Positions 62,422-64,000 of a stretch of 64,000 nucleotides of DNA are shown piece after piece. The translations under genes and the position numbers were made by a program. Positions within the stretch are counted from its first letter, which is position 1, and every line of letters begins with the position of its first letter. This DNA comes from Phycisphaera sp. (lineage in GTDB: Bacteria > Planctomycetota > Phycisphaerae > Phycisphaerales > Zrk34), in assembly GCA_016125285.1 (NCBI GenBank), contig WGMA01000015.1, forward strand, positions 1 through 64,000. The letters are read 5' to 3'. Under the pieces are notes generated by a model. It was not told the origin of the DNA, did not search any database, and was given only the letters and a program-made list of their open reading frames with translations.

Positions 62422-62495
62422 GGCCCCGTAGCCCAACCGGCAGAGGCAGGCGACTTAAAATCGCTACAGTGTGGGTTCGAATCCCACCGGGGCCA
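62422..62495 (+). tRNA. tRNA with anticodon UAA and short variable loop (tRNA-Leu-like)
   Basis: A full cloverleaf is visible: acceptor GGCCCCG/CGGGGCC with discriminator A62495, D-arm GCC/GGC, anticodon stem GGCGA/TCGCT with loop CTTAAAA (anticodon TAA, 62456-62458), a 5-base variable loop ACAGT, and T-arm GTGGG-TTCGAAT-CCCAC. CCA is not encoded. UAA reads leucine codon UUA, but bacterial tRNA-Leu normally has a long (class II) variable arm; this one has class I form. Such genes are often labelled tRNA-Leu or undetermined. Confidence 0.9.
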
Positions 62496-62507: not shown

Positions 62508-63119
62508 TCACGGCGCCTTGGCGGACTCATCGCCGAGGATGTCGGCCATCTCGATCACATCGCGTGCGACGTCGGCGATGCGGCGCTTGCGGTTCATCGC
62601 GAGCGTGCGGAGCCGTCGGTAGGCCTCGGCCTCGCCCAGGCCGCGCTGGTCCATGAGGATGCCCTTGGCGCGTTCGACGATCTTGCGTTCGTTGAGTGCG
62701 GCGCGGGCGTGCTCGAGCTGGTGGCGGACCTGCTGGTCGTGGTCGAACAGGGCGCGGGCGGATTCGATGAGCACGGCGAGCTGCTCGCGTGTGGCCGCGC
62801 CGTAGTGGATGGCCGCGACGCCGGCGGCGATCGCGTCGTCGACGCTGTGCTTGTCGTCGGCCTTCTGAAAGATCACCGCGACGGGGTGCGGCGCGATCCG
62901 CTGCGCGGCGGTGACGTTGACGAGCAGGTTGCCCGTCAGCTTCGTGGCGTCGATGAGCACGACGTCGGGGGTGTGCTCGGCGACAAGGTCCGCGAGGATG
63001 CTCGTCGGGCCGGCGATCGCCGCGATCGCGTAACCCTTGCTCGTCAACAGATGCGTAATGGATCCCTGACGGTGGCCATCGTCCTGAACGACCAATACCC
63101 GGCTGGCTGTGTCACTCAT
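62508..63119 (-). CDS. nasT: NasT-like ANTAR-domain response regulator
   Basis: This is a 203-residue RNA-binding regulator. A receiver-like domain (about 7-120) has the acceptor position Asp57 (DVVLIDA). A coiled segment ('RHQLEHARAALNERK') leads to an ANTAR domain (about 142-198; 'ERKIVERAKGILMDQRGLGEAEAYRRLRTLAM'). ANTAR proteins of nitrate regulons prevent early termination by binding hairpins in leader RNA. It is encoded divergently from a nitrate transporter with a sigma-54 promoter and leader hairpin, which supports the assignment. ATG 63119 is preferred to a GTG at 63128. No NasS sensor is in the window. Confidence 0.9.
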   Translation of the reverse strand: MSDTASRVLVVQDDGHRQGSITHLLTSKGYAIAAIAGPTSILADLVAEHTPDVVLIDATKLTGNLLVNVTAAQRIAPHPVAVIFQKADDKHSVDDAIAAGVAAIHYGAATREQLAVLIESARALFDHDQQVRHQLEHARAALNERKIVERAKGILMDQRGLGEAEAYRRLRTLAMNRKRRIADVARDVIEMADILGDESAKAP

Positions 63120-63332
63120 AAATATCACACGCGTTGCCGGGCGCGATCAGGACAGATCGCGCACGAAACAACGGGTGCCTCCGCAAATCAGATACAAATT
63201 GCTTGCCAATCCATCAGCCGGCCCGAAACGCCGCCTCGATGTGCCGCGTTTTTGTGCAATTGGATGTTTGGTGCGCATCAGATGGACACTTTTACGCGGC
63301 GTGGCGGCGTGGATTGCCTTTAAAACAGGAAG

Positions 63333-63347
63333 TGGCACGACCTTTGC
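63333..63347 (+). promoter_or_regulatory. Sigma-54 promoter upstream of the nitrate transporter
   Basis: TGGCACGACCTTTGC matches the sigma-54 consensus TGGCAC-N5-TTGC; the invariant GG (63334-63335) and GC (63346-63347) are separated by exactly 10 bp. Transcription would start at about 63359. Confidence 0.8.
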
Positions 63348-63357
63348 GAAACATCCG

Positions 63358-63394
63358 GCGGGCCGTCCGATCGACGTGGATCCGGTCGGCCCGC
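63358..63394 (+). promoter_or_regulatory. Leader hairpin, candidate ANTAR target
   Basis: GCGGGCCGTCC pairs with GGTCGGCCCGC (one mismatch) and an inner GATC/GATC stem closes a six-base loop GACGTG. ANTAR targets have hexaloops with A1 and G4; here G4 is present but position 1 is G. It begins at the predicted transcript start of the sigma-54 promoter. Confidence 0.5.
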
Positions 63395-63553
63395 AGTTAC
63401 TCGCCGAGCCTTCACCGGCTGCCTCCCAAGCAGGACAACGGCGTCCCGCGACGTAGTGCGAGTCACGAGGATGCGTTCCACGGACACGCCCCCGGCGTGC
63501 CCGAGTGGTTGTGGTTTGTCCGTTCGAGAGACGTTCGAGAGAGAGGCAATCTG

Positions 63554-64000
63554 ATGAGCACGCAGTCGGCGAAAGCCACGCGGATCAAGCTGTTCAGTTT
63601 CAACACGCCGCAGATGCGCGCGTTCCACATGTCGTGGTTCGCGTTCTTCCTGTGCTTCTTCGCGTGGTTCGGCATCGCGCCACTGATGAAGGTGGTGCGG
63701 GAGGAGCTGACGCTGACCAGGGAGCAGGTCGGCTGGTGCATCATCGCATCGGTCGCCGCGACGGTGTTCGCCCGCCTGCTGATCGGCTGGCTGTGCGACC
63801 GCATCGGCCCACGCCTCGCCTACACGTGGATGCTGCTGCTCGGGTCGATCCCCGTAATGGGCATCGGCCTCGCGCAGTCGTTCGAGACGTTCCTGCTGTT
63901 CCGCCTGGCGATCGGCGTGATCGGCGCGTCGTTCGTCATCACGCAGTACCACACGTCGGTCATGTTCGCGCCCAACTGCGTCGGCACGGCCAACGCCACG
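63554..64000 (+). CDS. narK: NarK-type nitrate/nitrite transporter (partial, cut by window end)
   Basis: The first 149 residues of a major facilitator protein are present: MSTQSAKATRIKLFSFNTPQ, then membrane helices starting at 'FHMSWFAFFLCFFAWFGIAPL', the MFS loop 'GWLCDRIGPR' and the nitrate signature region 'GASFVITQYHTSVMFAPN' followed by CVGTANAT. This is the NarK/NasA family that imports nitrate or exchanges it for nitrite. GAGAGG lies about 8 bp before ATG 63554. Regulation by sigma-54 and an ANTAR antiterminator is indicated by the upstream region. The rest of the gene lies beyond the window. Confidence 0.93.
   Translation, partial: MSTQSAKATRIKLFSFNTPQMRAFHMSWFAFFLCFFAWFGIAPLMKVVREELTLTREQVGWCIIASVAATVFARLLIGWLCDRIGPRLAYTWMLLLGSIPVMGIGLAQSFETFLLFRLAIGVIGASFVITQYHTSVMFAPNCVGTANAT

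Follow-up and report, generated by a model that had tools for sequence, protein, structure and literature searches.

The locus analysed here raises the question of how a gene for nitrate uptake is controlled in a member of the Phycisphaerae. The window, that is, the whole stretch of 64,000 nucleotides, covers the first 64 kb of a 103.7-kb contig (C12) from a 6.09-Mb draft genome, which is 97% complete in 90 contigs. At its end lies narK (63554..64000, plus strand), which encodes a nitrate/nitrite MFS transporter (PF07690, TIGR00886) and continues beyond the window to about C12:64939; the full open reading frame was read, and the part inside the window matches TIGR00886 (NarK family) with a score under the full-length cut-off. 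Divergent from it, on the minus strand, is a nasT-like gene (62508..63128) for a protein with a degenerate receiver and an ANTAR RNA-binding domain. The best overall explanation, to which we assign a probability of about 0.8, is NasT-dependent antitermination, through the ANTAR domain, on a narK transcript initiated by sigma-54.

Upstream of narK, the candidate sigma-54 promoter TGGCACGACCTTTGC (63333..63347, plus strand) has the GG and GC elements at the consensus spacing and is the sole match with 0 mismatches in the window. The initial annotation had described it as a near-consensus site 206 bp before narK; it even matches the consensus perfectly, and the distance from its last base to the narK ATG (63554) is indeed 206 nt. 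The transcript is predicted to start at about 63359. A search of the genome, which the same annotation had recommended, found one rpoN and also 10 sigma-54 activators. The pattern TGGCACG-N4-TTGC has 14 exact matches in this genome versus 0 for the reversed control, and TGGCAY-N5-TTGC has 26 versus 9. The same 15-mer precedes nrtA in a genome of the same family (G060) and recurs at C12:65085, outside the window, before the next operon (C12:64936-72808), which encodes an iron-sulfur/DmsC fusion, nasA, nirA and a flavoprotein. Control of this dmsBC-nasA-nirA-cysJ operon by NasT was considered and rejected, as no ANTAR-like hexaloop occurs in the initial 110-150 nt of its leader; because of this, uptake may be the only step under nitrate control. 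The best match to an NtrC-like palindrome upstream of narK has 3 mismatches and was not used as evidence, and an Rfam scan of the whole window at the gathering threshold matched a tRNA alone.

The leader RNA between promoter and gene is predicted to fold into a series of hairpins on the plus strand. P1 (63358..63394), which the initial annotation had rightly placed at the predicted transcript start as a strong hairpin with a six-base loop, has a folding energy of -28.3 kcal/mol (z -3.9; 0/200 shuffles equally stable) and resembles, in position and form, the P1 of other sigma-54/NasT leaders. Its hexaloop GACGUG (63373-63378) has G at position 4 and a C-G closing pair, as expected of an ANTAR target, and G instead of A at position 1. 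A linker of 38 nt (63395..63432), which may fold a small hairpin of its own (AGCC-UUCACC-GGCU), separates it from P2, GGAC-AACGGC-GUCC (63433..63446), a 14-mer that recurs in relatives and has A1 and G4 in its hexaloop (63437-63442) and the C-G closing pair. By its form and recurrence, P2 is the candidate second ANTAR target, which the first reading had overlooked. That reading had instead proposed the hairpin at 63478..63508 as the second RNA bound by the ANTAR protein. The hairpin is real, GC-rich and followed by TTGTGGTTTGTC (7 T of 12), and could be part of a terminator; we reject it as an ANTAR site, since its loop has only three bases, and those leaders of relatives that were read carry the conserved hexaloop in P2. 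Overlapping P2 lies a competing, terminator-like hairpin (63441..63474; -16.3 kcal/mol, z -2.0), which re-uses the end of the P2 loop and its 3' arm, so that this hairpin and P2 are mutually exclusive. The minimum free energy (MFE) fold of the whole leader is ordinary (z -0.67), does not contain P2 and is uninformative.

The long linker is a point against this arrangement. It exceeds the 5-12 nt of eut leaders and the 2-25 nt used as an actinobacterial filter, and the available text of one study states that adding 20 nt to the linker abolished antitermination by EutV (PMC8934654). Long linkers do occur in the leaders of Pelomonas, Mitsuaria and the planctomycete G143, and measure 36 nt in loci L159 and L161 and 76 nt in L037.

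Comparison with other genomes indicates that the arrangement extends across phyla. In G060, of the same family, nasS follows the ANTAR gene, nrtA is divergent and the same P2 overlaps a terminator with six U. Genomes of the same order (G137, G143, G201 and G231) have nasT-nasS together with a sigma-54 site and a P2 hairpin before nrtA, in G231 before nirA as well, and G072 has two such leaders on another contig. A scan of contigs yielded 52 nasT loci in Planctomycetota, Pseudomonadota, Myxococcota, Verrucomicrobiota and Poribacteria; with six loci of relatives, and excluding the genome of the window, the comparison set comprised 58 nasT loci, in which three pairs of the same DNA (L036/L147, L039/L146 and L040/L145) are counted twice. 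Sites too near the end of a locus were dropped beforehand, and a hairpin with a C[AANG(G/A)H]G hexaloop was sought within 220 nt. Such a hairpin lies downstream of 19 of the 30 perfect sigma-54 sites, versus 0/30 upstream on the same strand and 1/30 upstream on the opposite strand. Among sites with no more than one mismatch, the downstream count is 46/119, against 1/119 (same strand) and 3/119 (opposite strand) upstream. This asymmetry is, on these sequence counts, far from chance. Hexaloops with G1 and G4 are common in GC-rich sequence (466 in 252,616 nt), as would suit hairpins that arose by chance beside an unrelated ANTAR gene, but that explanation is contradicted by the asymmetry in the other genomes, by the identity and position of P2 and by the shuffles, and we regard it as highly improbable.

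The P2 14-mer by itself is less telling. Over 397 genomes of the class, the bare 14-mer showed, by eye, no clear excess over its reversed control, and therefore we used only matches with context. Among 79 distinct matches in the class search, 7 have, in the 400 nt upstream, a sigma-54 site with no more than one mismatch, versus 5 for the opposite-strand control; all 7 are in genomes with a close NasT. In five loci of Pirellulaceae (L148, L152, L153, L157 and L158), P2-like hairpins with another stem (catgc/cgtgc) and the loops AAUGAA, AACGAA, AAAGGC, AAAGAC and AACGAC were seen behind sigma-54 sites; in front of them is a GTCGAGAAGTCTGACTTTGGTCG-like hairpin that is conserved and maybe another form of P1.

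What weakens the antitermination reading most is the missing classical U-tract terminator, which was sought on the plus strand and not found. The competing hairpin is followed only by GUUCC, and TTGTGGTTTGTC comes after the next hairpin; since the competing hairpin has no U-tract, termination in the narK leader might be Rho-dependent or absent. This would favour an action of NasT on the translation or stability of narK RNA, and actinobacterial ANTAR RNAs have been reported, in the accessible part of PMC8164766, to act on translation. Against such an action, which we hold to be unlikely, P2 is placed some 107 nt upstream of the narK ATG, the competing hairpin leaves the Shine-Dalgarno-like GAGAGAGG uncovered, and in G060, in G137 and G201 and in the gammaproteobacterium Fontimonas thermophila P2 overlaps with a terminator of textbook form, complete with its U run.

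The regulator agrees with antitermination in its RNA-binding half. The divergent NasT-like gene described at the outset was confirmed; it starts at a GTG (63128) or an ATG (63119) and encodes the sole ANTAR protein of the genome (PF03861, 73.8 bits). The N-terminal domain matches the receiver family PF00072 weakly, under its cut-off, and is predicted to have a receiver-like fold: the AF2 model (pLDDT 85.7) finds its best PDB matches in the EutV-RNA complex 6ww6 and in Rv1626, followed by AmiR (1qo0). The Pfam scan gave only receiver and ANTAR, with no NIT domain fused to the latter. When compared with nine relatives chosen from the 26 in the alignment, the receiver has a mean identity of 30%, whereas those nine share 38-52% among themselves; the ANTAR domain has 55% to the same nine, within the 52-59% of all the others. 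The ratio of receiver to ANTAR identity is the lowest of the ten, that of the Poribacteria protein is next and that of Fontimonas is fourth lowest. In the tree, the branch of the window protein is long (1.75 versus a median of 0.28) and its placement is not firm. A divergent receiver with a conserved ANTAR domain would fit release from NasS binding with retention of RNA binding.

Does the G at position 1 of the P1 loop change recognition, as the initial annotation had suspected? The G itself is there, but the suspicion of altered recognition has been weakened. According to the available text on the EutV-RNA crystal, A1 makes no specific contact, whereas Arg142, Lys149 and Glu160 hold G4, which stacks on Tyr164 (PMC8934654). 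NasT of the window has the equivalents of all these G4-reading residues (R148, K155, E166 and Y170) and also M178, and because of this its reading of G4 should be normal. On the other side, the accessible portion of PMC3369931 reports that induction fell when A1 of the eutP leader was changed and that A at this position of P1 was needed in EutV leader mutants, versus the G found here. G1 recurs in nature. The narK leader of Fontimonas has a P1 stem of 16 bp (G-U allowed) with the loop GACGGU and a P2 the same as that of the window; the leaders of syqfu, UBA7800 and NAT22 have the loop GGCGUA before P2; and the sigma-54 leader of a porin gene in the window's own genome has, at its transcript start, two tandem hairpins, both with the loop GACGUG (0/200 shuffles gave two C[NNNGNN]G hexaloops). 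Of 45 leaders, 25 have a candidate P1, with A at loop position 1 in 15, G in 9 and T in 1, a tally biased by the background of the window's genome, in which G1/G4 hairpins outnumber A1/G4 hairpins 5.6-fold, and by three near-identical G leaders. With C and G on its two sides, the hexamer GACGUG occurs often in this genome (843 places of SNCGACGTGGNS); as a loop on a stem of at least 4 pairs it is rare, with 4 cases in 252,616 nt. Two of these belong to the narK and porin leaders. These numbers are after the fact, the loop having been noticed first and tested later. G1 in P1 is thus likely a tolerated variant. The G1 loop, together with the weak terminator, the missing NasS and the long NasT branch, might also suggest a relic, in which sigma-54 control is real and the ANTAR element defunct. 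We consider a relic leader quite unlikely in view of the letter-perfect P2, the conserved ANTAR domain and contact residues, and the tandem hexaloops that recur in the porin leader.

If NasT is active, what does it respond to? The initial annotation had asked for a search for nasS, a gene usually found beside nasT, and in this 97% complete draft nasS was not found. The only NasS relatives in the genome are a binding protein encoded in a cyanate operon and the product of nrtA (on C18), which has a signal-peptide-like start and 79% identity to NrtA of G060 versus 48% to NasS. As NasS was sought and not found, the system cannot be filed as a NasS-NasT system, though it would work like one. It is possible, if on balance doubtful, that it is an ordinary NasS-NasT system with unchanged sensing whose nasS is hidden in a gap of the draft assembly: the draft is in 90 contigs, and NasS adjoins NasT in G060, of the same family, and in ZRK34. 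Yet the neighbourhood of nasT is complete on one contig, where a tRNA gene (62422-62495) lies directly downstream, in the position that nasS has in close relatives; the receiver has lost its conservation while the ANTAR domain has kept it; and the Fontimonas genome and a Poribacteria MAG, both with nasT and narK, likewise gave no match in the NasS search, which gave two each in ZRK34 and G409. A gene of the NasS/NrtA type is not adjacent in 7 of 10 loci with NarK, but is also lacking in 10 of 31 loci without it; this tally covers the 41 loci with enough flank and leaves out 12 with short flanks, the window's included. The association at the locus level is therefore not clean, and we used only the absences of NasS from whole genomes. 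Tentatively, and with low confidence, one may imagine a branch of NasT free of NasS: genomes that import nitrate through NarK (this planctomycete, Fontimonas and the Poribacteria MAG) would have lost NasS or never had it, the receiver would have been free to diverge, the signal would come from elsewhere (its own receiver, NarK or another partner), the RNA code would have relaxed to a purine at loop position 1 and the porin family would have joined the regulon.

Under the preferred reading of NasT-dependent antitermination, narK would be transcribed from the sigma-54 promoter, presumably on nitrogen limitation through an NtrC-type activator, and P1 would fold at once in the leader RNA. If NasT is not active, the hairpin at 63441-63474 would capture the 3' arm of P2, and elongation would stop in the leader. 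With nitrate or nitrite present, a NasT dimer may bind the hexaloops GACGUG of P1 and AACGGC of P2; P2 would then stay folded and transcription would reach narK.

The same NasT probably serves nrtA, the porin gene and nirB. When 26 sigma-54 leaders of the genome were folded, C[NNNGNN]G hexaloops appeared in six MFE folds, those of narK (where the second loop counted is CAAGCA and not P2), the porin gene, nirB, a TorF-like porin gene (C63), a sigma-factor-like gene (C70) and groEL. The nirB leader has the loop AUUGAG, and AAUGAG with three pairs only; the nrtA leader has a P2-like GGAC-AACGAA-GUCC that lies largely beyond the 110 nt folded. Judged by these leaders, narK, nrtA, the porin gene and nirB are probable NasT targets, and cynA and glutamine synthetase were rejected, their leaders having sigma-54 sites without an R1/G4 hexaloop closed by a C-G pair. 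The porin-like gene with the tandem hexaloops (L077, C13:119500-122600, minus strand) is Alginate_exp/Opr-like with weak family scores. Its homologue in ZRK34 (48%) adjoins nasT-nasS and that in Fontimonas (36%) is divergent from nasT, both with a sigma-54 site and a hexaloop hairpin, and a porin family linked to nitrate is possible. The TorF-family-like porin gene (L203) has a sigma-54-like site, TGGCATAAGGTTTGC, and a hairpin with the hexaloop AAUGGA near its predicted start. Apart from these leaders, a sigma-54 site precedes a cyanate-type ABC transporter operon with a cyanase-like open reading frame, named by eye (L078, C15), and perfect sigma-54 sites lie upstream of dnaK-like and groEL-like genes, at distances of 92 and 137 nt (L082 and L085, C57 and C84); enrichment of sigma-54 sites at chaperone genes of Planctomycetota has already been reported (PMC12316311, in its accessible text).

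These results extend sigma-54 and NasT/ANTAR control of nitrate uptake to several families of the Phycisphaerae; a search by title and abstract, with subscription journals mostly outside it, found no description of such control in planctomycetes. They raise the question of how nitrate is sensed by NasT in genomes in which no NasS is found, and the natural G1 hexaloops can serve to test whether the protein reads A1 or whether this base merely shapes the loop.

A NasS-NasT system for nitrate assimilation was reportedly described by Wang et al. in 2012, and AmiR, of the AmiC-AmiR system, has a pseudo-receiver controlled by its partner. The window NasT resembles AmiR in its fold, but no gene for a periplasmic-binding-type partner was found for it. 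With the NasS-NasT systems of Paracoccus, Azotobacter and Pseudomonas it shares, as far as the available texts describe them, a receiver-ANTAR protein and a two-hairpin leader before nitrate genes (PMC3795266, PMC5424462), and the proteobacterial nasT loci compared here have sigma-54 sites, as the window does. It differs from them in that no nasS was found, in its narK-type transporter (the nrtA operon lies elsewhere in the genome) and in the G1 loop of P1. The proposal that the locus follows the logic of proteobacterial nas operons draws good support from comparison as regards sigma-54 initiation and ANTAR antitermination, and fails in that P2 had been misplaced and NasS is missing. Like the eut RNA of EutV, as presented in the accessible parts of PMC3369931 and PMC8934654, the leader has two hexaloops with G4 and a C-G closing pair, a P2 whose 3' arm is common to a competing hairpin, and a regulator with conserved G4-reading residues; unlike it, the linker has 38 nt instead of 5-12, P1 has G for A1 and the receiver is degenerate. 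The nasF leader of Klebsiella, according to the available text of PMC7496416, likewise combines nitrate genes, two hairpins and an ANTAR domain, but NasR senses nitrate through its own NIT domain, whereas the window protein has a receiver-like one. The mechanism proposed here, ANTAR antitermination on a sigma-54 transcript, is thus of a known kind and is found here in the Phycisphaerae.
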